64,000 nt of DNA from Planctomycetota bacterium (GTDB lineage Bacteria; Planctomycetota; B15-G4), in assembly GCA_021604805.1 (NCBI GenBank), contig BQJR01000002.1:1014665-1078664 (forward strand). Reading direction: 5' to 3'. The notes below the pieces were generated by a model. The model was not told where the DNA came from. It worked only from the letters and a program-made list of their open reading frames with translations, and did not search any database. Shown here in pieces: positions 3,037 through 61,680 of the stretch. Position 1 is the first letter of the stretch. Each line of letters starts with the position of its first letter. Position numbers and translations under genes: made by a program.

Positions 3037-3765
3037 TCAGTGTGGGAGGGCGGACTCGTGTGGGGCGCACTCCTCTGCGAGAAGCGTGATCACAGCATTG
3101 CCTCGAATGGGAACCCCGATGAGATGTGTTCCTGGCACATCGAGGCGCAAGCCAGCAGCGAGGAACTCGTGAGGGATCTGGATGATGAGGACCTCCCCGG
3201 CGTGCAGCTCGCTCATCGCGGCGAGTCTCCCGCTCGAATCCCGCAAGACGGCGATGGCGGACCTTCCTTCGAGGCTGTCCGCTCGATGAGCCGATCGGTC
3301 GCGGTTCAAGATCAAGGTGACGGTGTGATGCGCTGCCGCCACGGCTCTCGGTGGGGCGATCGTGAAGCCTCCCCCGCCAGAGGAAACAGTCCCGGGGCCC
3401 TTCATCGACATCGGCGTTGCCGGGCCACCTTGTCGACTGGGAGGGTTCACGACGACCCCCCCTCCCCCGGGGGCTTGAGGATCGTTCGAGGGTGCAGAGC
3501 TCGTCGAACTCATCGACTTGGGAACGGCGCGCGCATCCAGTTTTCCGCTCGCTGCACCTTCCACCTGCACAGCCTTCGAAGGGTGCGGGCTGACGCCACC
3601 TGCTTGAAGTTGAGTTGTCCCTGCCCCATGGAGGACGGCGCGAGGCGGCGTGATGACAAGTTGTGCAGCCGCGTCGGAGCTGGCAGAGAGCAGGAAAACG
3701 ACTGCTGCGGCGACGCCGGAAACCATGCGATTTCTCCGGTGTGTGCTCTGGCTGCAGGGGTTCAC
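3037..3765 (-). CDS. Secreted PPRA-box protein A, four proline boxes
   Basis: I do not recognise a described family. The GTG at 3763-3765 is chosen because GGAGGAG lies six bases upstream; this gives 242 residues. A signal peptide covers roughly residues 1-35 (VAAAVVFLL core, DAAAQ end). Right after it comes VITPPRA (PPRA at 40-43). Related boxes follow: HPSKAV near 64, NPPSR at 107-111 and APPRA at 138-141. A Gly/Ser/Pro-rich linker separates them. The C-terminal domain has IAVLRDSSGRLAAMSEL (RD at 175-176), the signature shared with the neighbouring paralogues, but carries a 30-residue extra tail. This is the last and most elaborated of five tandem paralogues. Its function is unknown; an exported surface or periplasmic role is inferred from the signal peptide. 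Confidence 0.75.
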   Translation of the reverse strand: MNPCSQSTHRRNRMVSGVAAAVVFLLSASSDAAAQLVITPPRAVLHGAGTTQLQAGGVSPHPSKAVQVEGAASGKLDARAVPKSMSSTSSAPSNDPQAPGGGGVVVNPPSRQGGPATPMSMKGPGTVSSGGGGFTIAPPRAVAAAHHTVTLILNRDRSAHRADSLEGRSAIAVLRDSSGRLAAMSELHAGEVLIIQIPHEFLAAGLRLDVPGTHLIGVPIRGNAVITLLAEECAPHESALPH

Positions 3766-3912
3766 TTTAGCTCCTCCGAGAGTGATGGGCTCACAGACTT
3801 CCCCCGCTGGAAACCAATCACGGCACCGAGTCACCACCGGGGAAGTGGATTCCAGCGTCGAGCCTGCATCGCAACTGGCGCTGCCGCCTTCAGAAGATGA
3901 TTCGGCGCGTCT

Positions 3913-4413
3913 CTATCGAGGCGCTCGCACGCTCAGCAGGAGGTTTCCCGCGGCGACTTGCGGATACGTAACGAAGGTTGCTGTCGCTCCTGGCCTGAGC
4001 GCTGCCATCGCGATCACTCGACCGCGGCTGTCTCTCACAATCACTAAAATCCGGTGGTATTGAGCGAGCTCCCCGACACCGAGTAAGGGTTTGCTCACCA
4101 CGAGCCGGACTGGCCTGCCTTGCGAGGCGGGCGTCTGCTCCGGGGGGCGGTTTCGTGCTGTCGCCCGGTCAACTCCGACCACGACTGGGCTGATGCTGGG
4201 CCGCGCACTGAGGTCGACACCGATCGCTGAGGCCATGCTTTCGGTACTAGTGGTGCCGGGGCCGCTGGGTGCGGCTCGCGGTGGAGAAATGACGACCGTG
4301 CCGCCACCACAGATCGCGGGACTTGAACAGAGTGCTAATGCAAGCACAGCAAGCGCGCAGGCAAGCGCGCGAGGGGGTCTCACGAACGACTGGTCAATCG
4401 CTTGCCTACTCAC
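3913..4413 (-). CDS. Secreted PPRA-box protein B
   Basis: A 166-residue exported protein of the local PPRA family, function unknown. The GTG start at 4411-4413 overlaps the previous stop as GTGA, and a GGAG ribosome-binding site lies inside the upstream gene's last codons. The hydrophobic signal segment is residues 17-35. The mature protein begins with GGGTVVISPPRAAP (PPRA at 44-47). A middle block, RPSISPVVVG, and the C-terminal signature VIVRDSRGRVIAMAALRPG are shared with paralogues D and E. Bases 4095-4193 are almost identical to 5406-5504 in paralogue D, which indicates recent duplication or gene conversion. The stop is TAG, as in paralogue E. All five genes read the same way, so one transcript is likely. 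Confidence 0.78.
   Translation of the reverse strand: MSRQAIDQSFVRPPRALACALAVLALALCSSPAICGGGTVVISPPRAAPSGPGTTSTESMASAIGVDLSARPSISPVVVGVDRATARNRPPEQTPASQGRPVRLVVSKPLLGVGELAQYHRILVIVRDSRGRVIAMAALRPGATATFVTYPQVAAGNLLLSVRAPR
4095..4193. repeat. 99-bp near-identical direct repeat, copy 1
   Basis: Bases 4095-4193 match 5406-5504 with about four differences by eye. The repeat lies inside paralogue B and encodes its middle segment. The two genes are less alike outside it, so the high identity is local. This looks like recent gene conversion or a partial duplication. Confidence 0.85.
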
Positions 4414-5006
4414 AGCGTGGCCTCCAGTCCGAACGCAGTGATAGAAGATCCTGCAGCCAGCTCTGCCGCGAAAAGCGTCTTGCCCTGCCGATCCCGAATG
4501 ACAGCGAGCACCGGCTCGAAAGCGTCACGAGCGTGTCGGCCTGCGGTTGAGGTTCGCCTCATGACCAAGATGGCGCTGGACGATGAGTCGCTCCCTGCGG
4601 TGATAATTCGTGGTGGAACGGAAAGGCCTCCGCCGCCTGCACCCTGGCCTAAGTTGTCAGGGTTGCGTGCCGACACCGCCACAACTGAAACGAGTATGCC
4701 GTGGGGAAGGTTCACGATCACGCCCCCTCTGACCGGCGCGACGGCGCTGCGGGGAGGTGCGAAGAACACGAGGGCCTGCGCCCGGAGCATGGTGTTCGCG
4801 TTTGCTTGACCAGCGGCCTCGTTCTCGGCCGGCACAGCCTTCGGAGGGTGCGGGTGAACCTCCTGCGCCCTGAGCGTTGTTCCGAGACAGGCAACGACGA
4901 TGCTTGCGATCACCGTCAGCGCGGTGAGCTTCCGCGAACTACATTTCCTCGGTAGCTCTCTCTCATGATGAGCGACATGAGCCCCCGCGCCTGTCTTCAG
5001 CTGCAT
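4410..5006 (-). CDS. Secreted PPRA-box protein C, divergent member
   Basis: The ATG at 5004-5006 follows GGGAGAG at suitable spacing, giving 198 residues; an in-frame start at 5045 is possible but has less support. A positively charged stretch and hydrophobic segment (residues 28-44) form a signal peptide ending LRAQ. The mature N-terminus reads EVHPHPPKAVP (PPKA at 54-57). Two more boxes follow, APPRS at 83-87 and VPPRI at 130-134, so the box is repeated inside the protein. The C-terminal signature VIRDRQGKTLFAAELAAG is more degenerate than in B, D and E. It ends in AFGLEATL, nearly the same ending as the helical protein upstream in the operon. That tail also carries the next gene's ribosome-binding site. 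No known function. Confidence 0.72.
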   Translation of the reverse strand: MQLKTGAGAHVAHHERELPRKCSSRKLTALTVIASIVVACLGTTLRAQEVHPHPPKAVPAENEAAGQANANTMLRAQALVFFAPPRSAVAPVRGGVIVNLPHGILVSVVAVSARNPDNLGQGAGGGGLSVPPRIITAGSDSSSSAILVMRRTSTAGRHARDAFEPVLAVIRDRQGKTLFAAELAAGSSITAFGLEATL

Positions 5007-5223
5007 CCACTTCTCTCCCGGATCAGATGTGTTCAGGGTCCCCACCGACTGTCGAGCGCCTGGTTCCGGAGCCCGAGCCGGTCAAAGTTGAGCCCCCGGT
5101 GAACTCATAAGGCTCTCCCGCCTGGACACCGAGATGTGCGCCAGGTCACCTGGGCGTTTGGAACCCCGTGTCACGCTCCCGTTGAGCCCTACGACGCCTT
5201 CTCGGGTGCAGTTTGCTGAGGTC

Positions 5224-5730
5224 TTACGGGAGGGCGTGGGCGCTCAGCAACAGTTCGGTGGCGACGACTTCCGGCGATGCCAGCAAGGTGACCCTTGTTC
5301 CTGGCTTGAGCACTGCCATCGCAATCACTCGGCCGCGGTCGTCCCTCGCGGTGACTAGAACCCAGTGGTTCTGAGCGAGTTCGGACTCGCCAACCAATGG
5401 GTTGGTCACCACGAGCCGGACTGGGCTGCCTTGCGAGGCGGGCGTCTGCTCCAGGGGGCGGCTTCGTGCTGTCGCCCGGCCAACTCCGACCACGACTGGG
5501 CTGAAAGTTGGGCGAAGGTTCACTGCTGTGGCGGTCGCTGAGTCAGCGCCCTCGGTTTGAGTGAAGCCGGGGCTGTGAGGAGCCGCGCGCGGTGGAGAGA
5601 TGACATGGCCTTGCGCAATGAGCTGCAGGTGGGCAGCCAGCACCGCGACTGTGGTTAGCAAAACTCGGTTGAGGCTTCGACGTCTAGCCCTGAAGTGCCG
5701 TGCGCTGGCATCGGACGTTGCGCTGCGCAT
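5224..5730 (-). CDS. Secreted PPRA-box protein D
   Basis: A 168-residue exported protein, closest to paralogue B. The ATG at 5728-5730 forms a TGATG junction with a 25-codon upstream frame. GGAG lies about nine bases upstream of it. The signal peptide has an Arg-rich n-region (residues 11-22) and hydrophobic core (23-39), ending AQG. The mature start is HVISPPRAAP (PPRA at 46-49). The block NLRPTFSPVVVG and the signature ARDDRGRVIAMAVLKPG follow. Bases 5406-5504 are the second copy of the repeat shared with B. The function is unknown. B and D differ mainly at the N-terminus and in the last 40 residues, where D ends SPEVVATELLLSAHALP. Confidence 0.78.
   Translation of the reverse strand: MRSATSDASARHFRARRRSLNRVLLTTVAVLAAHLQLIAQGHVISPPRAAPHSPGFTQTEGADSATATAVNLRPTFSPVVVGVGRATARSRPLEQTPASQGSPVRLVVTNPLVGESELAQNHWVLVTARDDRGRVIAMAVLKPGTRVTLLASPEVVATELLLSAHALP
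5406..5504. repeat. 99-bp near-identical direct repeat, copy 2
   Basis: Partner of 4095-4193, offset by 1311 bases in the same orientation. It encodes the stretch from the SPVVVG block to PVRLVV in paralogue D. About 95 of 99 positions agree by eye. Confidence 0.85.
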
Positions 5731-5807
5731 CAAACCAGCTCCAAGCCGACCGGTTGCGATGGAATCTCCGGCGCAACGCAGATCCCCTCGATCGTTAGAA
5801 CTCTCAT
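5730..5807 (-). CDS. Possible 25-residue leader peptide or gene remnant
   Basis: A short frame starts at the ATG at 5805-5807, preceded by AGGAGA at good spacing. It encodes 25 residues beginning MRVLTIEGIC and ending PVGLELV. Its stop overlaps the start of paralogue D as TGATG, so it could couple translation to that gene. The ending (GLE then two residues) resembles the FGLEA endings of the two other genes that directly precede PPRA genes. It may be the truncated tail of a lost upstream gene, or a true coupling peptide. Its length makes chance hard to exclude, but the ribosome-binding site and junction are better than expected by accident. Confidence 0.45.
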   Translation of the reverse strand: MRVLTIEGICVAPEIPSQPVGLELV

Positions 5808-6123
5808 GTGTTCATCTCCTGAGGCTAGAGGTATCAGGCACGCCACAACCGCGCTTGGGGGCCCCGTCGAATCGTGTGCGCGGCGGAACCTGGTTGGTTC
5901 GCGTAGGTCTCCATCACAGGAAACCGCGTGCCCGCCCAGGTTACATGTCGAAGAAGAAAACGCTCATTCCCCGGGTGGGTCGATCGCCGCGAGCCAGGTC
6001 GCCCTTGGGTGTGAGCGGGGGCGCGATGGGCAACAACGTGTTCTCAATGACGACAGGAACGACACCGCGCCTGGGAGTGCGCGGAAGGCCTCGCGTGTGT
6101 TGCCGTCAGCTCACACCGCGTCA
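5808..6123. other. 316-bp gap with a possible degenerate frame
   Basis: No confident gene lies here. On the minus strand 5941-6105 is open for 54 codons without an ATG near its beginning. It encodes a tail reading VIENTLLPIAPPLTPKG and ending MSVFFFDM. The IAPP piece recalls the proline boxes of the neighbours, so this could be a decayed paralogue, but the similarity is short. The rest (5808-5940) would hold the leader and any promoter for the small frame at 5807. I see no terminator with a T-tract. Confidence 0.3.
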
Positions 6124-6615
6124 CTAGTGGTCTGGTATGGCGCTGATCAAGAGTCCCTGTGTGGCGACTTCGGGTGCAAGCTCGAAGACCACTGTGGCCC
6201 CGAGCGCGAACCTCGCCATCGCGATCACGTGCCCTTCCCGGTTGTGCAAGACGACGAGGGTTGATCTGGATTGAGCATGGCCACTCGCTCCTGCGTGCGG
6301 GTGACGGACTAGAATCCTAATCGGTGCAGGCTGCAAAACGCTCACGCGGCGTGTCGTGGGGCTCCGTGATTCCTCACCGTCAGGTCCCACACCGAGTGGG
6401 CTGTACGCGGGCCGCAAGTTGGGAACGTGGTCGCCTCCCGAACCTGCAGTGTTCACTTGCGTGGCTGCCGAGATGACGGGCGCCCCGCGCGGCGGGACGG
6501 GGAGAATCGAGCCGCCGCCAGCAGCGGGCGCTGCTCTCGCAAGAACAAGCATCCCCAGCGAGAGTGCAAGAATAACTAGAGTAGGACTTCGAGGTCCGAG
6601 TTTGCGCGTTCTCAT
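6124..6615 (-). CDS. Secreted PPRA-box protein E
   Basis: A 163-residue exported protein and the first PPRA gene of the block. The ATG at 6613-6615 lies five bases after the stop of the upstream gene, and the likely ribosome-binding site (GGAGG) falls within that gene's last codons. The signal peptide is residues 1-32 (LVILALSLGMLVLA core). The mature N-terminus is GGGSILPVPPRGAP (PPRG at 41-44). It shares NLRPAYSPLGVG with paralogue D and the C-terminal signature VLHNREGHVIAMARFALG, where the RD pair is HN. The stop is TAG. Function is unknown. As the copy nearest the sigma-like gene it may resemble the ancestral member, which is an inference. Confidence 0.77.
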   Translation of the reverse strand: MRTRKLGPRSPTLVILALSLGMLVLARAAPAAGGGSILPVPPRGAPVISAATQVNTAGSGGDHVPNLRPAYSPLGVGPDGEESRSPTTRRVSVLQPAPIRILVRHPHAGASGHAQSRSTLVVLHNREGHVIAMARFALGATVVFELAPEVATQGLLISAIPDH

Positions 6616-6620
6616 TAAAG

Positions 6621-7466
6621 TCACGCGGAGGCCTCCAGTCCGAATGCCCCCTGAATGATGCATGCTTCTACGTTCAGCTTTTGTGCGAACCACGAGATCC
6701 TGTTGTGTACTAGCTGGGACCACTCGTTTGCCCAAGCGCCCTCTCCGAGGGTCGCTCTAAAGACCGAGGCGGCGCTCAAGAATGAATCCGTGTTGCCCAG
6801 GTTGGCGTGAGCTGCGCATCGGTCGAAGGCGAGGATTGGATCCTCTCCGTCGTCGAGAGCGAGTGAGTCGATTTCGGTCAGTGCTCGGTGTGACTGACCT
6901 GCTTCTGTTAAGGCGTGAACGATCAAGAGGCGCGCAGTCCGGCGCCAAGATGGGGTCGCAGTGGAGTTGGCAAGATCGCGTGCTCGGCTCGCAGTTTCGT
7001 CCCACTGTTCATGCACTGCAGGAAGAACGGCTTCCATGTAGCGCACGCGGTCACTTCGACCCTCCAGGCCCTCACAGATACGGAGCGCGGCACGAAGTGG
7101 GCGCAGGTCGGATTCGCTGCCCGGTTGGGGGAGCTTGAGCTGTGCTGTTTCAGGGTCGAGTCGTTGGCTAAGTAGGCGGATTGCCCTATGCAGGTCCAGG
7201 ACGTGCGCAGGGCTCTCGATCCAGATGCTGTTGCGGCAGCATGCTCCGTGCACCGCCAAGCAAGCACGCGCCAAGTCGTAGGCAACATCCGCGAGCTCGT
7301 GTTCCGCGGCATTCCGCGCCGCAACCGCGAGTTCACCTGCGAACGCTGTGTCGTCACTCGCATGAACACCACCGCCCCCCAGCAGCTCCGCCCCCACGCG
7401 TGCGTGCACGTCGACTCGCCGGAGGACTTCGTCGGTGTCCACTGGGCGATATGGATCAGGAGTCAT
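6621..7466 (-). CDS. Cytoplasmic helical protein of unknown function
   Basis: The ATG at 7464-7466 is set by a textbook AGAAGGAGGT five bases upstream, and it overlaps the end of the sigma-like gene by 11 bases. The 281-residue product has no signal peptide or membrane segment. It is rich in Ala, Leu and Arg, with alternating helical stretches such as DLARACLAVHGA and RTARLLIVHALTEAGQSHRAL, which suggests a TPR-like or other alpha-solenoid fold. I recognise no catalytic motif. Its place between a sigma-like factor and the secreted PPRA proteins suggests a partner, such as a regulator of the sigma factor, but nothing in the sequence proves this. It ends GAFGLEASA, echoing paralogue C. Confidence 0.75.
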   Translation of the reverse strand: MTPDPYRPVDTDEVLRRVDVHARVGAELLGGGGVHASDDTAFAGELAVAARNAAEHELADVAYDLARACLAVHGACCRNSIWIESPAHVLDLHRAIRLLSQRLDPETAQLKLPQPGSESDLRPLRAALRICEGLEGRSDRVRYMEAVLPAVHEQWDETASRARDLANSTATPSWRRTARLLIVHALTEAGQSHRALTEIDSLALDDGEDPILAFDRCAAHANLGNTDSFLSAASVFRATLGEGAWANEWSQLVHNRISWFAQKLNVEACIIQGAFGLEASA

Positions 7467-8124
7467 CGGGACCTCCTTCTGTGACTTGGGAGAGCGCCAG
7501 CGCGAGACCCTGTCGCGCCTGGCTTTCGAGGCTGCGCACTTGTGGCGCCGGGGTGCCGAGCGCGAGCGCGGTGGTGTTGATGCTGAGCTGTTCGACGTCG
7601 AGCGCGCGCAGGACGCGACGCTCATCGAGCGGCAGTCTGTGGAAACACACGGCGACCACACGTTGGTACGGCGTTTGTAGTTTGGCGACGGCGTCGGGCA
7701 ACGGGCCGGTGTAGAGCCGCGGGCGCGCGCCCTCTTCCTCATCGATCACGAGGCGCGCGACTTGAGACACGAGCTGTTGCGCTTCGTCGCGCAGGGCTTC
7801 GGTGCTGTCGCTCAAGAACGTGGGCGTGTCGGGCAGGCGCTTCTCGGGATCGATGAACAGGTGCGAATAGAAGGCCACCACCAACTCATCCGGGTCGAGG
7901 GCGAGGCCGACTTGGCGCGCAACCTGTCGCGCCGACTCGCGCAGGAACGGTTCGGTGAGCTCGAGCAGCAAGTCGAAGAGTCGCGGCTCATCCTCGGACT
8001 GGAATCGCGCGAGCAGGATGCGCGCGGCGATGTCCACGTTCTCGGGGAGCCGCAGGTCGAGGTTTCCTAACCGTTCATCCTGCGAGAGCTGCTGCAGGCG
8101 TCGTTGGAAACCGTCGGTCGTCAT
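7456..8124 (-). CDS. Sigma-70/ECF-like factor
   Basis: A 222-residue protein with the two-part layout of small sigma factors. Residues about 45-95 look like region 2: LFDLLLELTEPFLRESARQV followed by DPDELVVAFYSHLF, where ECF factors have an acidic DAEDLVQ-type helix. Residues about 160-215 look like region 4: a helix around LPLDERRVLRALDVEQLS, then TTALALGTPAPQVRSLESQA in place of the helix-turn-helix. The motifs are divergent, so the call is provisional. It would direct RNA polymerase to a small set of promoters, perhaps this block itself. It is the first gene of the block and overlaps the next by 11 bases. A GGTAAGG site precedes its ATG. Confidence 0.55.
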   Translation of the reverse strand: MTTDGFQRRLQQLSQDERLGNLDLRLPENVDIAARILLARFQSEDEPRLFDLLLELTEPFLRESARQVARQVGLALDPDELVVAFYSHLFIDPEKRLPDTPTFLSDSTEALRDEAQQLVSQVARLVIDEEEGARPRLYTGPLPDAVAKLQTPYQRVVAVCFHRLPLDERRVLRALDVEQLSINTTALALGTPAPQVRSLESQARQGLALALSQVTEGGPDDS

Positions 8125-8399
8125 CCAGCCTTACCCCTTGGTCAAGCGGTCCTGCGCGACGCCACTCCAGCCGAGGCGACGGTTTCCCGGCCACCACCTA
8201 CGGCCCTTCTCAGGCCCACGACGCTAGGTGAACATCGAGGGGTCGTCAAGGAATCGCATGGGACTTGCCGTTCCCGAAGTGATTCAAAGCAGTCGACGGC
8301 TCAAAGCCCGCCCGATCTCAGAAACCACCGGGAGACGGCGTGGGCCATCTTCCGGCCGGTTCACATCGCCACAGGCCCGTGGAGTCGTGCCACCCCGCT

Positions 8400-9449
8400 T
8401 CAGTCTCCCCGCGGCAAGGCGTCGAGACTCAGGTCGGCTGTGTGGCCGGCGCGTTGCACGTGATGCCCGAGGCCCGCCACCATCACGGCGTTGTCCGTCG
8501 CCAGGCGCATGGGCGGCATGAACAACGGTAGCCCGGCGCGCTCGGCCTCGAGCTTCAGCCGCGCGCGCAGCCCGCTGTTCGCGGCCACGCCTCCGCACAC
8601 GACCAGCCCCCCCGCCTGGATGCGCCGCGCGGCTTGCAGCAGGCGTTTCGCGAGCACGTCGACAGCAGCGGCTTGGAACGACGCGGCCACGTCGGCGGGC
8701 ACGAGGTCGGCGGGCAAGGGGTCGCGACCCTGCGGCCCGCGCAGCGCGTAGAGCACGGCCGTCTTGAGCCCGGAGAACGAGAAGTCGAGGCTGTCACTGG
8801 GGAGCGGACGCGGGAAGGCGTAGGCCTTCGGGTCGCCGTCCGCCGCCAGCTTGTCGAGCAGCGGCCCACCCGGGTAACCGAGGCCGAGCAACGCCGACAC
8901 CTTGTCGTAGGCCTCGCCCGCGGCGTCGTCCAAGGTGCGGCCGATCGGGCGGTGCACCTGTGGGCCACCACTCTCGTAAAGCGTCGTGTGTCCGCCCGAA
9001 ACCACCAACGACGCGAGGGGCCAGGGAGCCGATTCAGGCGCCGTGGGGCCGTTGCCTGCCGCACCGCCGGCGTCTTCTCCGCCCATCAAGGCCCCATAAA
9101 CATGGGCGTGGACGTGGTTCACGGGGATCAGCGGCAGGTCGAGCGCCAGTGCGAAGCCTTTCGCGGTGGAAAGCCCGACCAGCAGGCAGCCGATGAGGCC
9201 CGGTTGGTTCGTGACGGCCACCCCATCCACCTCGGCCAGCGTGACCCCGGCCTCGTCGAGGCAGGTCTGGATCACCGGGAAGATCACTTCCAAGTGGCTG
9301 CGACTGGCGACTTCGGGGATCACGCCGCCGAAGCGCGCGTGCAGCTCCGCCTGGCTGGCGACCCGCTCAGCGAGCACCTCGTGCCCATCCCGCACCAGCG
9401 CGGCGGCGGTCTCGTCGCAAGAACTTTCGAGGCCGAGGATCAGGCTCAT
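8400..9449 (-). CDS. tsaD: tRNA N6-threonylcarbamoyladenosine transferase
   Basis: TsaD transfers the threonylcarbamoyl group to adenosine 37 of ANN-decoding tRNAs, working with TsaB and TsaE in the cytoplasm. The start MSLILGLESSCDETA is the classic N-terminus, so the ATG at 9447-9449 is chosen over longer in-frame options. The metal-binding histidines are His112 and His116 in NHVHAHVYG. ASKHA-fold blocks follow: SLVVSGGHTTLY, GRTLDDAAGEAYDKV, FSFSGLKTAVL and VCGGVAANSGLR. At 349 residues it is of normal size. An internal 15-20 residue Gly/Pro-rich insertion follows the metal site. It stands alone, with 275 bases to the next gene downstream. Confidence 0.97.
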   Translation of the reverse strand: MSLILGLESSCDETAAALVRDGHEVLAERVASQAELHARFGGVIPEVASRSHLEVIFPVIQTCLDEAGVTLAEVDGVAVTNQPGLIGCLLVGLSTAKGFALALDLPLIPVNHVHAHVYGALMGGEDAGGAAGNGPTAPESAPWPLASLVVSGGHTTLYESGGPQVHRPIGRTLDDAAGEAYDKVSALLGLGYPGGPLLDKLAADGDPKAYAFPRPLPSDSLDFSFSGLKTAVLYALRGPQGRDPLPADLVPADVAASFQAAAVDVLAKRLLQAARRIQAGGLVVCGGVAANSGLRARLKLEAERAGLPLFMPPMRLATDNAVMVAGLGHHVQRAGHTADLSLDALPRGD

Positions 9450-9696
9450 GGTCGCGGGATACACTCTTGGAGGATCAGGCTGGGGAGCATGTCCGAGTGG
9501 GCCCATCGTGTCGAGGCCGCACCCCAACCTATGGCTATCAGCATGCTTACATTGATTCCACAACTCGCGGTGTCGGGATCAGGGGGCGAATGGCGTCGGT
9601 TGGCGCCCGATTCGAAGGGGCGATGCCGGACCAATTCTTGCCGCCCTCAGCAGCTCTGATTCACCCGACCCCGAGATGGAACGCGGAGGTACCCCG

Positions 9697-51860: not shown

Positions 51861-52310
51861 ATGAAGAAGAAGCAGAAGAGCAACAACACCAACCGCGGTT
51901 TCACGCTCGTCGAGCTGGCTGTGGTCGTGGTGATCATCGGCGTGCTCGCGGCGTTCGCCGTGCCGCGCTTCCTGAGCTCCGTCGAGCGTTCGAAGGCTGC
52001 TGAAGCCTACAACTACCTCGCCACCGCTCACTCCGCCCAAGAGCGCTACCACGCGCGTCAGGGTACCTACGCCAGCGACATCGAAGATCTCGACACCGAG
52101 ATGATGACGCCGGAGTACTTCAGCGTGGGCGCGATCGCTGTGCCCGCTTCGGAGACCGACCTGGAGACGGGTTGGGAGATCACGCTCACTCGTGAAGGCG
52201 CCTCTGCTGGTTACGGCGCCTACACGGTCGTGTTCAACCACAACGGTTTCGACGCGGTGAACAGCACCATCAGCGCCGAGATCAGCCCGCTGCAGACGGC
52301 GGAAAGCTGA
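51861..52310 (+). CDS. Major type IV pilin/pseudopilin
   Basis: A 149-residue prepilin. The leader KKKQKSNNTNRG ends at the prepilin peptidase site, G followed by FTLVELAVVVVIIGVLAAFAV, with Glu at +5. That hydrophobic helix (about residues 14-35) builds the fibre. The globular part has a YHARQGTYASDIEDLD segment and a beta region near the C-terminus, with no cysteine pair, more like GspG-type pseudopilins than classical PilA. AGGGA precedes the ATG. It heads a cluster of pilus/secretion genes, followed by a strong hairpin that may let the pilin be made in excess. Prepilin peptidase is not in the window. Confidence 0.93.
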   Translation: MKKKQKSNNTNRGFTLVELAVVVVIIGVLAAFAVPRFLSSVERSKAAEAYNYLATAHSAQERYHARQGTYASDIEDLDTEMMTPEYFSVGAIAVPASETDLETGWEITLTREGASAGYGAYTVVFNHNGFDAVNSTISAEISPLQTAES

Positions 52311-52328
52311 TTGCACCTGATGCACGGC

Positions 52329-52376
52329 CCGCTCGGGTGAGCTCTTTGCTCAACGCAGAGAGTCTCACCCGGGCGG
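52329..52376 (+). terminator. Stem-loop after the major pilin gene
   Basis: Bases 52329-52345 pair with 52359-52376 (about 17 bp with one wobble and one bulge). It lies 18 bases after the pilin stop. No T-run follows, so it may be a partial terminator or protect the pilin mRNA end. Confidence 0.55.
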
Positions 52377-52472
52377 TCCACCCCGGCGGCGTCCTGCGCG
52401 ACTCGCGCAGCACCGTGCGCTCTCACGGTCGCGATGTCACGGGTCCCCAACCTCTCCCGCGACGACCGCACC

Positions 52473-53924
52473 ATGGCGAAGCGCACCACAAGCCGCATGA
52501 AGGGTGCCACCGGCATCTTCCTCGGCGAAGACAGCTTGGTGGTGACGACGCTCCGTCGCCGCTCGGTGCGCTCGCGCAAGCTCGAGTCCTTCGAGTTGGC
52601 CTTCGGTCCCGAAGGCCCCGCCGCCGCGCTGCGTCAGCTCGCTGACGAGGGGCGCCTGGCGCACGAAGTCGTCTGCGGTCTGGATCCGCGACGCATCTTC
52701 TCGATCACGCGCAAGCTCGGCGCCGACGAACAAGAGCGCGAGCCCTCTGAGCTGCTCAACCGGCAGCTCACCAGTTTCGAGGGCGGCGTCGTCGCGGCGA
52801 TGCAAGCCGTGAAGTTGCCCTCGGGCACGCACCACCACATGGTGGCCGTGCAGCGCAGCACCGCCGTGGAGCTGCACGAAGTCCTCGCCGAACGCGGAGG
52901 CGGCTCTCAACGCTTCGTGCCCGTGCCCGTGGCGCTCATGCATCTCGCGCGACGCAGCCAGCGTCAGCCGCGGCGCTGGCACACGGCCTTGCGCTTGATG
53001 CCGGGCGACGAACACGGCGTCATCGCGCTCTGCCACGACGACACGGCGCTCGCCTGGCAGCTCTACGACTCCGGCGACCGCGAGTCGCTGCTGATCGCCG
53101 TGCTCGGTCTGCGCAGTCACGCGCAAGACGAGCTCGGCATGACCAAGCTCGACGGCATGATCCTGCACGCTGGCGACGACAACGCCGCGCTGGCCGAGTC
53201 GCTCGCCAAGCGCTTCGAGATCCCCTGCCTCACGGCCCCCGAAGTGCGCATCGACGCGCACACGATGAGCCACGCGCTGGCGCTCTCCGGCCTGCGCCCC
53301 CAATGGGAAGACCTCGACCTCTTCTCCGACCTGCGACCGCACGGCGGCTTCCGTCACAACTTCCCGTCGCGCGTGGTGCCCGCACTGCTGCTGCTCATCG
53401 CCGGCCTCTCGACCTACCTCTGGATGGAGGTCGACACGCTCGAGATCGCCGTCGCCAAGGTGAACGCGCAGATCGAACGCGATGCCGCGCGCGCCGGCGC
53501 GCAGGTGGCCGACCTCACCGGCCTGCACGACAAGCGCGAGCGCGAGCTCAACGTGATCCACGCCTTCGTGGTGCGTCGCGTGTTCTGGGAGGACTACCTG
53601 CGCGAGCTGCCCAAGGTCGTCCCCAACACGCTCAACCTGCAGCGGCTCGACGGGCGCGACGCGGTGATCCTCAAGAAGAAGTCCGCGTCGGCAGTGGCCA
53701 AGCTCAAGCTCTTCTCCGTCACCGGCGACGTGGCGCTCAACGCGCGCGAGACGCAACCGCGCGAGATCGCGCAACTCACCCAAGCCCTGCAGAGCTCCGA
53801 GCTCTTCCAGAGCAACTTCCCCGTGGTGGAAGGCTCGAACGTGCGCCTGCAGTCCGGTAAGTCGGGCGCCGAAGCCACCATTGCCGTGACCTGCAAGCCG
53901 CCCAAGGGCTGGGTGGGGAGCTGA
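52473..53924 (+). CDS. PilM-PilN-like fusion protein
   Basis: A 483-residue protein. Two in-frame starts, 52434 and 52473, lack a good ribosome-binding site; the second begins MAKRTTSRMKGATG. Residues about 1-290 resemble the cytoplasmic actin-like PilM/GspL domain (ATGIFLGEDSLVVTTL, VVCGLDPRRIFSITRKLG, MILHAGDDNAALAESLAK). A transmembrane helix at about 302-320 (ALLLLIAGLSTYLWMEV) is followed by a coiled coil and periplasmic ferredoxin-like domain like PilN (FWEDYLRELPKVVPNTLNL). So the normally separate PilM and PilN are joined, as in GspL. It connects the pilus platform to the secretin subcomplex. The next gene begins eight bases later. Confidence 0.8.
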   Translation: MAKRTTSRMKGATGIFLGEDSLVVTTLRRRSVRSRKLESFELAFGPEGPAAALRQLADEGRLAHEVVCGLDPRRIFSITRKLGADEQEREPSELLNRQLTSFEGGVVAAMQAVKLPSGTHHHMVAVQRSTAVELHEVLAERGGGSQRFVPVPVALMHLARRSQRQPRRWHTALRLMPGDEHGVIALCHDDTALAWQLYDSGDRESLLIAVLGLRSHAQDELGMTKLDGMILHAGDDNAALAESLAKRFEIPCLTAPEVRIDAHTMSHALALSGLRPQWEDLDLFSDLRPHGGFRHNFPSRVVPALLLLIAGLSTYLWMEVDTLEIAVAKVNAQIERDAARAGAQVADLTGLHDKRERELNVIHAFVVRRVFWEDYLRELPKVVPNTLNLQRLDGRDAVILKKKSASAVAKLKLFSVTGDVALNARETQPREIAQLTQALQSSELFQSNFPVVEGSNVRLQSGKSGAEATIAVTCKPPKGWVGS

Positions 53925-53932
53925 TCGCCGCC

Positions 53933-54499
53933 ATGGAGACAGGCTTCGACAAGTCGCAACTGCAGGCCGTGGAGCTCTGGTGGGCGCGCACCACCGGGGA
54001 TCACGTGCGTTTGCGCTTCGTGATCTGTCTCAGCTTGTTCCTGAGTTCCTACCTGTTCGTGATCGATCCGTTGAGCGTGCGTCTCGCGGCGGCGCGCAGC
54101 AGTCATCGCGAAGTGCTCAAGCGCGAGAACATGGCCAAGGAACTGGTCTACTTCGCGGACCAGCTCGCGATCATCGAGCCGCGCCTCGTCGCTGAAGACG
54201 ACGAAGTCGACTGGCAGAACTACGTGCTCGATCAGTTGGCCGCCGCCGGCGTGCAACTGGCCTCGGTGGAGCCGCGCGGCGTGAAGTCGCAACACGGCTT
54301 CAAGTTGGTCGAGATGGAGATCAACGCGCGCAGCACGGAGTACCCGGCCTTGGTCGACTTCGTGGATCGTGTCGAGCACGGAGACCGCTTGGTGCGCATC
54401 GAGAAGCTCACGATCGTGCGTCAGCCGAGCAACCTGCTGCTGACCTGCGTGCTCAAGGGCTTGGTGCGGCCCGGTCTCGTGCGTGCGGAGGACGACTGA
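53933..54499 (+). CDS. PilO/GspM-like inner-membrane protein
   Basis: A 188-residue protein with one transmembrane helix at about 28-46 (FVICLSLFLSSYLFVIDPL). A coiled coil (ARSSHREVLKRENMAKELVY) and a small periplasmic domain follow (GVQLASVEPRGVKSQ, EMEINARSTEYPALVDFVDRVEHG). That layout matches PilO or GspM, which pair with PilN/GspL in the inner-membrane alignment complex. The assignment relies on position between the PilM-PilN fusion and the PilP-like gene, because sequence in this family is poorly conserved. The stop overlaps the next start by one base (TGATG). Confidence 0.8.
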   Translation: METGFDKSQLQAVELWWARTTGDHVRLRFVICLSLFLSSYLFVIDPLSVRLAAARSSHREVLKRENMAKELVYFADQLAIIEPRLVAEDDEVDWQNYVLDQLAAAGVQLASVEPRGVKSQHGFKLVEMEINARSTEYPALVDFVDRVEHGDRLVRIEKLTIVRQPSNLLLTCVLKGLVRPGLVRAEDD

Positions 54500-55245
54500 T
54501 GTTCGAGTTCATCCACACACGCATCGCTTGGATCGCGGGCTGCCTGCTCATCTGGACGAGCTACGGCGCGCTCCAGGACGACACCAAGGTGAAGGCGATC
54601 AAGAAGCTCGAGCGCGTGGAGATCGGCGCCGAGCTCGTGGAGCGTCGCGACCCGCTCAGCGCGGCGCCGAAGCTGCGCGATCCCTTCAACGTGCCCGACG
54701 CCGACGGAGCCCCCCGCGACGCCACGCTCGCCAAGACCGGCATGCTTGGCGCCCTCGACACGGGCCTGCACTGGGTGGCGTCGAACCAAGAGTTCCTGAG
54801 CGAGACTGTCGCGCCCTTCGTGCCCGCGCTCAACGCGTGGCGACGCGCCGAGGCGCACGTGGCCACTCTCGGTCAGGCCTCGTTGAGTCCCGTGGTCGCC
54901 GGACCGCCGCCTGCGTTCCGCTTGCAGCTCGAGGCCGTGAGTCGCGCCGACGGCGTGAGCTCGGCGCGCATCAACGGCCGACTGTTCCGCGAAGGCGACG
55001 TGATCCCCAACAGCGACGCGTACGCGCCGCCGCGCGTGGCTGGCATCGAAGGCGTGTCGGTCTACGTGATGCACCGCGGCAAGGTGCTCACGCTCGACCT
55101 CGACGATGCGCCCGTGGTGCAGGTCGGCGAGCCGGCCGTGTCTTCGGGGGGCGCATCGTCGTCGTCGTCGTCGCAGGCGTCGGGCAGCACGCTCTCCCCG
55201 CGCGCGCGCAACCGCGCCTTGCGCGCTGGCGGAGGCGCGCCATGA
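54499..55245 (+). CDS. PilP/GspC-like protein
   Basis: A 248-residue protein. A hydrophobic N-terminus (residues 7-26) acts as signal or anchor. RDPFNVP-type residues near 60 recall PilP. A C-terminal beta domain, ARINGRLFREGDVIPNSDAY then VEGVSVYVMHRGKVLTLDL-like strands, matches the GspC homology region that binds the secretin N-domains. The last 30 residues are a Ser-rich and Arg-rich tail. It would link the inner-membrane complex to the secretin. The stop overlaps the ATPase start as ATGA. Confidence 0.75.
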   Translation: MFEFIHTRIAWIAGCLLIWTSYGALQDDTKVKAIKKLERVEIGAELVERRDPLSAAPKLRDPFNVPDADGAPRDATLAKTGMLGALDTGLHWVASNQEFLSETVAPFVPALNAWRRAEAHVATLGQASLSPVVAGPPPAFRLQLEAVSRADGVSSARINGRLFREGDVIPNSDAYAPPRVAGIEGVSVYVMHRGKVLTLDLDDAPVVQVGEPAVSSGGASSSSSSQASGSTLSPRARNRALRAGGGAP

Positions 55246-57065
55246 ACCGCCCGACCGTGTCGCCCGAAGCGCTCCAGGATCAACCGCTGCTCGTGCGCTT
55301 GCTCCTCGAGCAAGGTGAACTCGAAGCCAGTCAGCTCGACGCCGTGAACAAGGCGCGCTTGCGCTTCCCCGGCGACGTCGAGACGGCCCTGATCCACTCC
55401 AACCTGGTCACGGAGCAAGACGTCGCGCGGAACTACGCCGAGCACCTCGGCGTGCCCTGGTTGGACGTGGCCGCCTCCGAGAAGCCCGACGACGACGCGC
55501 TCTGGGTGGTGGAGTCGCGCGACGGCGGCGAGCCGCTGCCCATCGCGCCGCTGTCCGAACTCGTGGCGCAGTGCCGCAGCGTGAGCGACGCCATCGGCGA
55601 CGTCGTGTGCCGTAAGCACAGCGTGGTGCCCGTGGGCGCGCGCGCCGGCTCGGCCGACCTGGCCTGTCTCAACCCCTGCGACTTCTCGGTGATCGAAGAG
55701 GTGCGCATGCGCGCGGGTTGCGTGGTGCGACCGCGCGGCGCGACGCTGCGCCTCGTCACCGAGATGATCAGCGCGCTCTACGGCGAACGCGACATGGTGC
55801 GCGAGATCGCCGGCGAAGACGGCGGCAGCGGCGCGAGTCAGGTGGCCAATGACGACGAGATGGAAGTCGTCGTGGACCTCGGCCGCCCGATCCCGAACAC
55901 CAAAGACAGCCAGGTGATCCGCATCGCGAACATCTTGCTCTCGACCGCCATCGACGAAGGCGCCAGCGACATCCACCTCGAGCCCTACGAGGACACGGTG
56001 CGCGTGCGCTACCGCGTGGACGGCAAGATGCTCGAGACGACGCCGCCGCCCAAGGCGCTCTTCGTGCCGACCATCTCGCGCCTGAAGATCCTCTCCAAGA
56101 TGGACATCGCCGAGCGTCGCTTGCCGCAAGACGGCTCGATCGCGCTCAAGCACGGCGACCGCCGCGTGGACCTGCGCGTGTCCACCGTGCCCACCGTGTA
56201 CGGCGAGAAGATGGTGATCCGAATCTTGGAGAAGGGCGGCATCCCCGACTCCATGCTGCAGCTCGGCTTCAGCGAGAAGCAGTCGGAGGCCTTCCTCGAG
56301 GCCGCCAACTCGCCGCACGGACTCATGTTCGTCACCGGGCCGACGGGCTCGGGCAAGAGCACCACGCTCTACTGCTGCCTGAACCTGATCAACAAGCCCG
56401 ACGTGAACATCGTCACGGTGGAAGACCCGGTCGAATACAAGTTCACCGGTCTCAACCAGGTGCACGTGCGCACGAACGTGGGTCTCACCTTCGCGAGCGC
56501 GCTGCGCGCTTTCCTGCGTCAAGACCCCGACAAGATCATGGTCGGTGAGGTCCGCGACCAAGAGACCGCGCAGATCTGCATGCGCGCGGCGCTCACCGGT
56601 CACCTCGTGCTCTCCACGCTGCACACGAACAACTCGCTGCAGGTGATCAACCGCTTGGTCGACATGGGCATCGAGCCCTTCCTGCTCGGCCCCGCGTTGC
56701 GACTGCTCGAAGCGCAACGCTTGGCGCGCCGCTTGTGCCCCGACTGCAAGGAGGCCTACGAGTTGCCCGACCAGGTCGCCGAGCGGCACGGGCTCGAGGC
56801 CGGGCTCACCTTGTTCCGGGCCGTGGGCAAGAGCTGCCTCACCTGCCGTGGCACGGGCAGCAAGGGTCGCGTGGGCATGTACGAGGTCGTGGCCATCAGC
56901 GAGGCGCTGCGCGAGTTGATCTCGTCGGGGGCTTCGCAGAACGACATCAAGCGCGAGGCCAAGCGCGAGGGTGTGCGCTTCCTCGAGGACGACGCGCGCG
57001 ACAAGTTGCGCCAAGGCGTGACGAGCCTGGAAGAAGTCGCCGAGTACATCCGGGTGAGCGGGTGA
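55242..57065 (+). CDS. Type II secretion/type IV pilus assembly ATPase
   Basis: A 607-residue hexameric ATPase of the GspE/PilB family that powers fibre extension. GGAGG precedes the ATG. The N-terminal MshEN-like domain (LLLEQGELEASQLDAVNKAR) is followed by the catalytic core. Walker A is GPTGSGKSTTLYCCLN, the Asp box is NIVTVEDPVEYKF, Walker B is DPDKIMVGEVRDQETA, and the His box is TGHLVLSTLHTNN. A zinc site is formed by two CxxC motifs (LCPDCKEAY and SCLTCRG). It is 4-base coupled to the preceding gene and five bases before the platform protein. Retraction ATPase PilT is not present, so the system may be a secretion or adhesion fibre rather than twitching pili. Confidence 0.97.
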   Translation: MNRPTVSPEALQDQPLLVRLLLEQGELEASQLDAVNKARLRFPGDVETALIHSNLVTEQDVARNYAEHLGVPWLDVAASEKPDDDALWVVESRDGGEPLPIAPLSELVAQCRSVSDAIGDVVCRKHSVVPVGARAGSADLACLNPCDFSVIEEVRMRAGCVVRPRGATLRLVTEMISALYGERDMVREIAGEDGGSGASQVANDDEMEVVVDLGRPIPNTKDSQVIRIANILLSTAIDEGASDIHLEPYEDTVRVRYRVDGKMLETTPPPKALFVPTISRLKILSKMDIAERRLPQDGSIALKHGDRRVDLRVSTVPTVYGEKMVIRILEKGGIPDSMLQLGFSEKQSEAFLEAANSPHGLMFVTGPTGSGKSTTLYCCLNLINKPDVNIVTVEDPVEYKFTGLNQVHVRTNVGLTFASALRAFLRQDPDKIMVGEVRDQETAQICMRAALTGHLVLSTLHTNNSLQVINRLVDMGIEPFLLGPALRLLEAQRLARRLCPDCKEAYELPDQVAERHGLEAGLTLFRAVGKSCLTCRGTGSKGRVGMYEVVAISEALRELISSGASQNDIKREAKREGVRFLEDDARDKLRQGVTSLEEVAEYIRVSG

Positions 57066-57069
57066 ACCG

Positions 57070-58173
57070 ATGAAGACCGCCACGCTCCCCAACCCCGGCT
57101 TCCTGCGTCCGCGCGTGACCGCGAAGATGCACCCCAAGGTCACGTCGCCCGACTTGTTGGCCTTCTTCCAGCAGCTCTCCACCCTGTTCGGCGCGGGCAC
57201 GCCGATCTACGAAGCGTTGATCATCGCCGCCGCGCAGACCCAGAGTCAGCGCCTCTCCGACGTGATCCACGACATCGCGGACCAGGTGGCTTCGGGCACC
57301 TCGCTGCACGCGGCGCTCGCGCGTCACGAGCGTTACTTCCGGGCCGAGTGGAACGAAGTCATCCGCAGCGGTGAGGAGTCGGGTCAGCTCGCCGAGGTGT
57401 TGCAACGTCTCACGCGCCAGATCGACGCGGCCGCGCAGCTGCGCAGCAAACTCGTGAGCGCGATGATGTACCCCGCGATCATCATGGTCGTGGCGGTGGG
57501 CGCCGTGGTCGTGATGTTGGTCAAGGTCGTGCCGACCTTCGCGAGCATGTTCGAGTCCTTCGGCAAGGAGCTGCCGGGCATCACGCAGGCCGTGCTGAAC
57601 TTGTCGGCCTTCATGCAGGACCACGTGCTGATGTTGCTGGGCGGGATCACGGTCGGCGTGATCGGCATGCGTCGCTACCTGAACACCCCCGAAGGCGCGC
57701 AGCGACGCGACAACGTGCTCATCGCGATCCCCGGCATCGGCGACGTGATCGTGCAGGTCTGCATGCAGAAGTTCGCCAACAACATGTCGATGCTGCTCGG
57801 CGCGGGGCTCCCGTTGCTGGAGTCGCTGCACAGTCTCAAGGGCATCTTCAAGGGCAACGCGGTCTACCACGCGGCGATGTCGAAGGTCGCGAAGCACGTG
57901 GAGCGCGGCGGACAGCTCGCCGAAGCCGTGGAACAGACCGGCGCCTTCACCAACTTCGCGTCGAGCATGACGCGCATCGGCGAGGAGTCGGGCACGCTCG
58001 CCGAGGTGCTCAGTGAGGTCGAGATCTACTACCGCCGCAAGGTCGAAACCGTCGTGGAGCGCCTGGCGAGCACGCTCGAAACCGTGGTGATCCTGGTGAT
58101 GGGTGTCACGGTGGCCGTGATCCTCTGCGCCGTGTACCTGCCCATGTTCTCCATGGCTTCGGGGGTCGGATGA
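57070..58173 (+). CDS. Platform protein (GspF/PilC family)
   Basis: A 367-residue polytopic inner-membrane protein that contacts the ATPase. Two related domains of about 120 residues each are seen: LLAFFQQLSTLFGAGTPIYEAL with RSGEESGQLAEVLQRLTRQID, and ANNMSMLLGAGLPLLESLHS with RIGEESGTLAEVLSEVEIYY. The three membrane helices include PAIIMVVAVGAVVVMLVKVV and ETVVILVMGVTVAVILCAVY. Those repeats and the GE(E/R)SG motifs are the family signature. Its stop overlaps the secretin start as ATGA. Length is slightly below the usual 400 residues. Confidence 0.97.
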   Translation: MKTATLPNPGFLRPRVTAKMHPKVTSPDLLAFFQQLSTLFGAGTPIYEALIIAAAQTQSQRLSDVIHDIADQVASGTSLHAALARHERYFRAEWNEVIRSGEESGQLAEVLQRLTRQIDAAAQLRSKLVSAMMYPAIIMVVAVGAVVVMLVKVVPTFASMFESFGKELPGITQAVLNLSAFMQDHVLMLLGGITVGVIGMRRYLNTPEGAQRRDNVLIAIPGIGDVIVQVCMQKFANNMSMLLGAGLPLLESLHSLKGIFKGNAVYHAAMSKVAKHVERGGQLAEAVEQTGAFTNFASSMTRIGEESGTLAEVLSEVEIYYRRKVETVVERLASTLETVVILVMGVTVAVILCAVYLPMFSMASGVG

Positions 58174-59891
58174 TGACGCTCCCCGCCACCAGACTGCGCG
58201 GCATGCTGTGCGCGCTCGTGTTGTTGCTCGGCGCCGCGCCGCTCAGTGCGCAGGCCTTGGCCGACGGTCTCGAAGCCTTGCTCAGTGGTGTGCAGCGTGA
58301 GCGCGACGAAGGCCCGACGCTCCCGCCGCCCACCGAGCTCGGCGTGGGTGAGAACACCGGCTTCGCGAAGGCGCCTGGCGGTCTGCTCGAGCTGCACGCG
58401 CGCAACCTCGACGTGATGGACTCGATGGCGCAGCTGCGCCAGCTCACGCGTCGCAACATCGTGGTGTCCGACGACGTCGACGCGCGCTTCACCGGCGACC
58501 TCTACGACGTGAGCTTCGAGGAAGCCATCGCCATCATCTGCCGCTCGGCGAATCTCGAGTGGACGCAGGAGTCGAACTACCTGCACATCGGCCGCGCCAA
58601 GATCGTCACGCGGCACTTCAAGCTGAACCATGCCCGTGCCGACGACCTGGTGGCGCTCATCGAACCGATGCTCAGCGCCGAGGGCCACGTGTCGGGCACG
58701 CAACCCTCGGAAGTGGGCATCGCGTCCTTCGCCAGCGACGAGTCCGCCGGCGGCGGCGACTACGCCGCGCTCGACGTGCTCGTGGTGCAGGACTACGCCG
58801 AGCGCATGGCCGAGATCTCCGAGATCATCTCCACGGTCGACGCGCAACCGCGCCAGGTGCTCGTGGAAGCCACGATCCTGACCGCCGAGATCAGCGACAC
58901 CTACGACCTCGGCACCGACATCACCACCGTGTTCGGCAGCGACTTCCAGGAGATCGGCGCGACCACCAGCGGCTCGGGCGCCGAGATCGACGAGTTCCGC
59001 CCGCAGCTCGCCGACGACGGCCTCGTGACCGGCGCCACCAGCCTCAGTTCCGGCTTGCCCAGCGGCGGCCTGCGACTCGGCTTCCTCAAAGACGGCATCG
59101 GCGCCTTCGTCACCGCGCTGCAATCGGTCACGACCACGAACGTGCTCGCGAGCCCCAAGATCATCACGCTCAACAAGCAGCGCGGCGAAGTGCTGCTCGG
59201 TCGTCGCGACGGCTTCCTCACGACCACCGTGAGCCAGACCTCCACCACTCAGAGCGTGGAGTTCCTGGAGACGGGCACGCGCCTGATCTACCGCCCCTTC
59301 ATCACCGACGACGGCTTCGTGCGTCTCGAGATCCATCCCGAGGATTCCGACGGCGGCGTGGACGCCGCAGGCCTGCCCTTCAAGGAAACCACCGAGATCA
59401 CCACCAACGTGATGGTGCGCGGCGGCGAGACCGTGGTGATCGGCGGCCTCTTCCGCGAGAAGGAACGCGTGATCCATCGCAAGGTGCCTTGGCTCGGCGA
59501 CATCCCGTGGCTCGGCGAACTCTTCCGCAGTCGCAGCGAAGAGATGGTGCGCGAAGAGATCATCATCTTCCTCACGCCGCACATCATCGACTTCGCCGCG
59601 CAGCTCGCCGCCGAAGAGGTCGCGAACGCCGCCATGCCGCGCCCGGTGGAACTCGCCAAGTCCTATGTCGACGCGGCCCGCGAGCTCGTGGCGCGACGTG
59701 AGTTCGGCAGCGCCGAGATGATGCTCGCCGCCGTGAACCGCTTGGGTGTGCGCCTCGACGAGGTCGACGACCTGCGTCGCCAGATCTGGCGCGACCGCGT
59801 GCTCGACTACGACGAAGACCTCGTCGACGGCCTGATCCTGGAGTTGCTCATGGGCACGCCCGTGACTCCCGGCACCTCGGAGGACGACTGA
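58170..59891 (+). CDS. Secretin (GspD/PilQ family)
   Basis: A 573-residue outer-membrane secretin with a signal peptide (residues 1-27, ALVLLLGAAPLSAQA). N-domains are recognisable: VMDSMAQLRQLTRRNIVVSD (STN/N0-like) and VTRHFKLNHARADDLVALIEP (N1-like). The secretin core holds QVLVEATILTAEISDTYDLG, TNVLASPKIITLNKQRGEV and VVIGGLFREKERVIHRKVPW, with WLGDIPWLGELFRSRSE and EEIIIFLTPHIID. The C-terminal 80 residues are a helical extension (AKSYVDAARELVARREFGSA), possibly a pilotin-binding or TPR-like part. It forms the channel for pseudopilus or pilus. A TPR lipoprotein follows three bases later and could be its pilotin. Confidence 0.96.
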   Translation: MMTLPATRLRGMLCALVLLLGAAPLSAQALADGLEALLSGVQRERDEGPTLPPPTELGVGENTGFAKAPGGLLELHARNLDVMDSMAQLRQLTRRNIVVSDDVDARFTGDLYDVSFEEAIAIICRSANLEWTQESNYLHIGRAKIVTRHFKLNHARADDLVALIEPMLSAEGHVSGTQPSEVGIASFASDESAGGGDYAALDVLVVQDYAERMAEISEIISTVDAQPRQVLVEATILTAEISDTYDLGTDITTVFGSDFQEIGATTSGSGAEIDEFRPQLADDGLVTGATSLSSGLPSGGLRLGFLKDGIGAFVTALQSVTTTNVLASPKIITLNKQRGEVLLGRRDGFLTTTVSQTSTTQSVEFLETGTRLIYRPFITDDGFVRLEIHPEDSDGGVDAAGLPFKETTEITTNVMVRGGETVVIGGLFREKERVIHRKVPWLGDIPWLGELFRSRSEEMVREEIIIFLTPHIIDFAAQLAAEEVANAAMPRPVELAKSYVDAARELVARREFGSAEMMLAAVNRLGVRLDEVDDLRRQIWRDRVLDYDEDLVDGLILELLMGTPVTPGTSEDD

Positions 59892-59893
59892 CC

Positions 59894-60901: not shown

Positions 60902-60905
60902 GCGC

Positions 60906-61677: not shown

Positions 61678-61680
61678 GCC

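Follow-up and report, generated by a model that had tools for sequence, protein, structure and literature searches.

The locus and its genes

Here we consider a block of genes in a 64,000-nucleotide stretch of DNA, the window, from an uncultured Planctomycetota bacterium (assembly GCA_021604805.1, contig BQJR01000002.1, positions 1,014,665 to 1,078,664). The source genome, G000, measures 4.47 Mb, and the window lies within its contig C2. Between positions 3037 and 8124 the minus strand carries seven co-oriented open reading frames (ORFs): a gene for a degenerate sigma-like protein of the extracytoplasmic function (ECF) type, sig, a gene for a soluble helical partner, hel, and five genes for small proteins of exported type, E, D, C, B and A (Table 1). 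The module to which they belong is real and is restricted to one Planctomycetota family, as judged from five genomes of other genera of that family and 288 other sampled Planctomycetota. A preliminary description, made from the letters of the window, had treated the block as a unit, and the repetition of the order sig, hel, small exported protein both in the source genome and in sister genera bears this out.

The source genome has another sig-hel pair (L044:6843-7499 and 7496-8323), with an exported-type gene, own2, directly behind it; both junctions of this run (L044:6843-8754) are 4-bp overlaps. Sister genera carry sig-hel pairs followed by small exported proteins at L047 (two), L049, L053, L055, L056, L058 (two) and L060, and at L050 the contig ends directly after hel. 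The genes in this order often overlap by 1-4 bp, and usually one or two exported genes lie downstream. A hel profile detects the module in all six family genomes; among the 288 other Planctomycetota it gave no full-length match and partial tetratricopeptide repeat (TPR) matches in two, in a scan whose sensitivity was limited by scoring at most five candidates per genome. The sig-hel pair persists at nine loci across six genera, and this hints at a conserved function. Homologues scattered without these partners had been named beforehand as a finding that would speak against a unit. This is not the situation of the closest homologue, yet L112:7638-8048, an exported relative of the sister-genus family, stands alone, the neighbours read there including no sig-hel pair, and one sigma-like gene, at L057, is partnerless. 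The dnaJ-like neighbour of L057 recurs at L058, on the opposite side of the exported genes there.

The coding status of A-E matters because their GC content at third codon positions is low (0.63-0.69, versus 0.87-0.89 in tsaD and carA on either side) and they escape a simple gene caller based on codon usage; the overall GC content of the block is 0.61-0.65, versus 0.68 for the window. None of the seven ORFs contains an internal stop. B and D differ at 35, 40 and 64 sites in codon positions 1, 2 and 3, respectively, and their ratio of nonsynonymous to synonymous substitution (dN/dS) is about 0.37-0.46, a sign of purifying selection. Homologues, this ratio and the box shuffles described below rule out A-E as chance ORFs. 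Likely starts are GTG at 3765 for A, with the Shine-Dalgarno sequence GGAGGAG, and ATG at 5006 for C, 5730 for D, 6615 for E and 7466 for hel, the last also preceded by a Shine-Dalgarno sequence.

The junctions were said to be overlapping or very short throughout. Three of them are, as sig and hel overlap by 11 bp, C and B overlap by 4 bp, and hel and E are 5 bp apart; the other three gaps are not short, at 393 bp (E/D), 217 bp (D/C) and 147 bp (B/A). Terminator-like sites were no more numerous than in shuffles. The E/D gap (5731-6123) is unusually long for the inside of the block; a sixth family gene hidden there was considered and rejected, as reading three frames yielded no family ORF.

Table 1. 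Features of the block, its flanks and one example of the related locus. Positions are those of the window unless a locus is given.
Feature	Position	Strand	Remarks
sig, sigma-like protein, 222 aa, degenerate ECF type	7456..8124	minus	recognisable region 4, no recognisable region 2
hel, soluble TPR-like helical partner, 281 aa	6621..7466	minus	anti-sigma-like by homology, itself without Hx3Cx2C
E, exported PPR-box protein, 163 aa	6124..6615	minus	paralogue of B and D; hydrophobic N-terminal segment
D, exported PPR-box protein, 168 aa	5224..5730	minus	paralogue of B
C, exported protein, 198 aa, three PP(R/K) boxes	4410..5006	minus	paralogue of A
B, exported PPR-box protein, 166 aa	3913..4413	minus	paralogue of D
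A, exported multi-box protein	3037..3765	minus	GTG start with GGAGGAG
Box LPVPPRG in E	6484..6504	minus	
Box VISPPRA in D	5584..5604	minus	DNA repeat D2
First box HPHPPKAV in C	4833..4856	minus	DNA repeat common to A
Box VISPPRA in B	4273..4293	minus	
First box ITPPRA in A	3637..3654	minus	
TTGAC-N18-TAGCGT, promoter-like element	8221..8249	minus	starts 125 bp upstream of sig
tsaD-like flank	8400-9464	minus	name by reading
carA-like flank	1807-2955	minus	name by reading
Related locus, example	L045:7898-11060		

A helical partner akin to anti-sigma factors

As modelled, hel is a TPR solenoid. Its AlphaFold2 model is, with confidence, a solenoid of helical hairpins (predicted local distance difference test, pLDDT, 85.6; predicted template modelling score, pTM, 0.79), and the hel family profile matches designed and natural TPR chains, with E 1.8e-15 for consensus TPR chains. 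A fold search with the model returned many TPR proteins with high Foldseek probability, none of them at E <= 0.001, and the window hel on its own has no Pfam TPR match. Nothing in hel looks like a transmembrane segment (19-residue hydropathy maximum 1.01). Near the N-terminus, eight hel relatives bear the motif Hx3Cx2C, reported to mark zinc binding in anti-sigma domains of class I (PMC7406223), and the best NCBIfam matches of L048:5456-5998 are, weakly, the RsrA and ChrR anti-sigmas; the motif is absent from the proteins of L044, L050 (where the start is uncertain) and L053.

Direct adjacency of hel to a sigma-type gene is seen in the window, at L044 and at other loci. The pair resembles an ECF sigma factor with a soluble zinc anti-sigma, such as SigR-RsrA or SigE-ChrR, in that the genes for the sigma-type protein and its soluble partner are adjacent and overlapping and relatives of the partner bear Hx3Cx2C. 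It differs from these systems in that the partner is mostly a TPR solenoid, lacking the zinc motif in the window, region 2 of the window sigma-like protein is degenerate, and exported genes stand in the same run.

A related locus brings the two parts together in one chain. In five family genomes (L045, L046, L048, L052, L054) the sigma and TPR parts form a single protein of 508-656 aa as read; genes for an exported protein and for a second sigma factor, of the ordinary kind, accompany it, near genes that read as glycogen-phosphorylase-like (glgP) and/or gamma-glutamyltransferase-like (ggt); G001 has a sigma gene and an Hx3Cx2C protein at this position. These five natural fusions indirectly support a physical partnership of sig and hel. 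The exported protein of the related locus carries a conserved GNDGVGGIE-type box, G(N/D/G)DGVGG(I/V)E, after its signal and has a different C-terminal domain. In overall layout the fusions are like ECF42, an ECF sigma with a TPR extension of about 200 residues at its C-terminus (PMC8999054). Unlike in ECF42, the TPR part in the window is a separate gene; moreover, no YCII-type neighbour was seen at the related loci, and generic TPR models alone match. Another fused sigma-TPR gene, distantly related, lies about 4 kb upstream of the satellite locus in L047 (L047:14640-15983).

The sigma-like protein and the element upstream of it

Region 4 of sig is recognisable. It matches Pfam Sigma70_r4_2 at E 4.7e-4, under the curated cut-off, and NCBIfam SigM over the region-4 stretch at E 1.7e-5, and the sig family profile matches sigma-E structures at E about 1e-6. 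Ten sigma-like proteins of this kind, here called satellites and including that of the window, are split from the ordinary members of the family by a branch with support 95/96, the window and L044 proteins forming long branches. All ten satellites lack a Sigma70_r2 match, which 8 of 12 ordinary members have. Over the nine satellites that could be aligned, identity to the ordinary consensus is 0.29 in regions 2.3-2.4 versus 0.45-0.60 in other regions, the net charge of regions 2.3-2.4 is -5 to +3 versus +3 to +7 in ordinary members (Mann-Whitney P 0.0006), and region 4.2 is less basic as well (P 0.005), the sequences ranked in these tests being related and not independent. The satellite branch has lost region 2 in recognisable form, together with the positive charge of that region, so that sig may not be a working sigma factor.

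The promoter-like element TTGAC-N18-TAGCGT ahead of sig has a counterpart in L044, beginning 141 bp ahead of the paralogous sig there. This core occurs four times in 4.47 Mb, with one control match, and its extended form, CTTGACnnCCC-N10-ACCTAGCGTnG, has exactly two genome copies, both ahead of satellite sig genes.

The exported proteins and their boxes

A-E and own2 all have a hydrophobic N-terminal segment (15-aa mean hydropathy 1.95-2.62; cleavage sites placed by inspection only), and in each a PP[RK] box stands 5-8 residues past the predicted cleavage site. When the mature proteins are shuffled, PP[RK] falls within the first 15 residues at P = 0.006-0.017 for each protein, values which are not independent and are not to be multiplied, as A-E are paralogous. 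For comparison, 1 of 69 other predicted proteins from three genome regions has PP[RK] within its first 75 residues. The five small exported-type genes with a box close to the signal, the core of the preliminary description, are confirmed by these figures. Its details fared unevenly. Strict PP[RK] boxes number three in C, as had been claimed, and two in A, which reaches the claimed four only if HPSKA and NPPSR are allowed; D and E have one each, and B has one in its mature part and another preceding the signal segment. The C-terminal pattern (V/L)xxRDxxGRVIAMAxLxPG, ascribed to four proteins with the fifth degenerate, is strict in B and D alone and degenerate in E, A and C.

By identity the five proteins form two groups, B/D/E (B/D 58%, D/E 38%, B/E 33%) and A/C (33%). 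A 26-nt DNA repeat, 92% identical between A (3564-3589) and C (4829-4854), spans the HP(S/P)KAV box and is more strongly conserved than the remainder of the two genes. The expectation that the exported proteins belong to no named family stands, since Pfam gave no match and the sole NCBIfam match, for D, is far under its cut-off. Besides proteins of the source genome, a PPR-box profile found only one further match, a distant box protein in genome G283 (E 1.3e-4); it is charged and His/Gly-rich, has PPKHPPSGPG after its signal and other neighbours, and was judged a chance match. A profile of A-E missed own2 and all sister-genus exported proteins, so that calls of absence are weak for such fast-evolving proteins. 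After a sig-hel pair in L047, the exported protein L047:7188-8498, mostly missed by the codon-usage caller, carries 10-14 units of GGD-x-GGG-x-(I/V)P, some preceded by QAR, before its C-terminal domain.

The small C-terminal domain of the exported proteins is probably of the carboxypeptidase-regulatory (transthyretin-like) type, to judge from sequence comparison through own2. This protein (L044:8320-8754; 144 residues) has LLPPRQTP after its signal, followed by RPSYSPVVVG and ARDARGRIVAIG, and aligns with B, D and E across the box, RPxxSPxxVG and ARDxRGRIVAIG. It also matches a profile of the sister-genus exported proteins (alignment A8) at E 0.0011, a score equalled by none of 500 shuffles. 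Within A8, L049:11447-11854 contains a PF13620 domain at E 8e-8, the only one above the curated cut-off, and weaker matches also occur; PF13620 is not matched by A-E or own2. The C-terminus of A resembles the satellite domain (GLRLDVPGTHLIGVPI), not significantly by itself. The tie of the window proteins to the transthyretin-like fold relies on the own2 bridge, as A-E alone are not significant. Like carboxypeptidase regulatory-like proteins, the sister-genus exported proteins that follow the same sig-hel pair bear the PF13620 domain, with own2 as the bridge; unlike them, the window proteins are unmatched, with a domain that is shorter or degenerate and with a PPR box.

A proposed sigma/anti-sigma-derived module and its alternatives

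On balance we favour, with some reserve, the view that the block belongs to a set of duplicated modules, in each of which a pair derived from an ECF sigma and its anti-sigma controls fast-evolving exported envelope proteins. Each copy would consist of an ECF-derived protein, an overlapping soluble TPR-solenoid partner akin to zinc (Hx3Cx2C) anti-sigma-like proteins, and one or more exported proteins in which a Gly/Pro box segment at the N-terminus precedes a small C-terminal domain. Gene order, recurrence, homology of sig and hel to their family, the TPR fold prediction, paralogy and coding selection are the direct basis of this view. From them we infer that the genes are co-transcribed as an operon from a promoter upstream of sig, and that the TPR partner would bind the sigma-like protein until a cytoplasmic cue alters this hold, raising or lowering expression of the operon in a form of autogenous control. 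The exported proteins would be the output, acting in the periplasm or on the cell surface, perhaps with a role for the box; in the source genome, the exported gene would have been amplified in tandem to five divergent copies. As the processing, sorting or binding tag that was suggested earlier, the box has its conserved position and its repetition in its favour and no more; sensing or self/non-self marking, also suggested, would be speculation.

A number of observations weigh against this view. The window hel itself has no Hx3Cx2C. No Sigma70_r2 match was obtained for sig in Pfam, a region 2 with a basic surface for reading the -10 element was not found, and regions 2.3-2.4 of sig have a net charge of -5 where ordinary members have +3 to +7; from its sequence, sig may be unable to open promoters. 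The element upstream of sig has a -35-like TTGAC and not the ECF-type GGAAC, and no GGAAC promoter was found ahead of sig or in the three gaps. With its -10-reading region degenerate and the shared element not ECF-looking, the earlier picture of sig as a working sigma factor that drives the regulon is not supported. The remaining two copies of the core element lie 70-90 bp upstream of unrelated genes, so that the core could be a promoter of general use, its extension being a mark of common descent or of shared control. The gaps of 393 and 217 bp could conceal separate promoters. None of A-E individually matches the A8 profile significantly, their profile-profile comparison with the sister-genus proteins is marginal (E 0.064), and AlphaFold modelled B too poorly (pLDDT 54.6) for a fold search. 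At L057:821-1672, finally, what follows a satellite-type sigma-like gene is a dnaJ-like gene, hel and an exported gene both being absent in between.

Alternatively, sig and hel may no longer be a transcription switch, the sigma-like protein having lost promoter reading after duplication from the ordinary ECF locus and survived as a protein-binding partner, for example a decoy titrating the TPR protein or RNA polymerase, with another sigma factor driving the operon. The missing Sigma70_r2 matches of the satellites, the lost identity and charge of their regions 2.3-2.4, their less basic region 4.2 and the non-ECF type of the upstream element all point this way. We consider this possible and clearly less probable than the switch, as region 4 remains recognisable and the pair is retained across genera; fast divergence by itself may mask region 2, satellite branches are long, and the rank tests used non-independent sequences. 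A bolder version, in which the pair lost promoter reading and was repurposed as a dedicated module for multi-box exported proteins radiating by tandem and dispersed duplication, would make the box a functional repeat, either a binding or a released unit, and the whole a new sigma-derived signalling or surface-display system. It appears unlikely.

Two further explanations were considered. The block might be a decaying or newly acquired genomic island of fast-evolving genes with no common function, as its low GC and the low third-position GC of A-E, the uneven gaps and the degenerate C-terminal domains of A and C would fit. Purifying selection on B and D, seven stop-free ORFs out of seven and the repetition of the order at other loci argue otherwise, as do the lack of matches in phage and plasmid collections (one query each) and of a nearby tRNA, and we regard an island as quite improbable. 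More improbable still, the exported proteins could be precursors of secreted peptides, the repeated box being released and the TPR partner acting as receptor, as in Rap-Phr. Here too a TPR gene is followed directly by genes for small exported products, as in Rap-Phr/RRNPP signalling; boxes are repeated in A, in C and above all in L047:7188-8498, and a Rap protein (6t3h) is among the many TPR structures matched. That match is generic, however, Rap-Phr has no sigma partner, and every exported member keeps a C-terminal domain for which a peptide precursor has no need.

Implications

Taken one by one, the parts all have known counterparts, namely ECF sigma, anti-sigma-like partner, TPR and small exported domains. 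The way they are combined, the degenerate sigma branch and the tandem array of boxed proteins apparently have no counterpart in the family libraries and literature searched. The duplicated ECF sigma/anti-sigma-type module favoured above would imply a lineage in which such a module was copied many times, its sigma component diverged until promoter reading was no longer recognisable, and every copy has small exported proteins of its own. If so, it would offer a clear example of sigma factors converted to another role, as well as an entry point to numerous unannotated exported proteins of Planctomycetota. Caution is advised in looking for them, as genes like A-E can escape gene calling by codon usage.

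Elsewhere in the window, a co-oriented run of genes at 51861-62582 encodes several pilin- or pseudopilin-like N-termini (GFTLVEL, GFTLTELL) and is probably a type IV pilus or type II secretion cluster.

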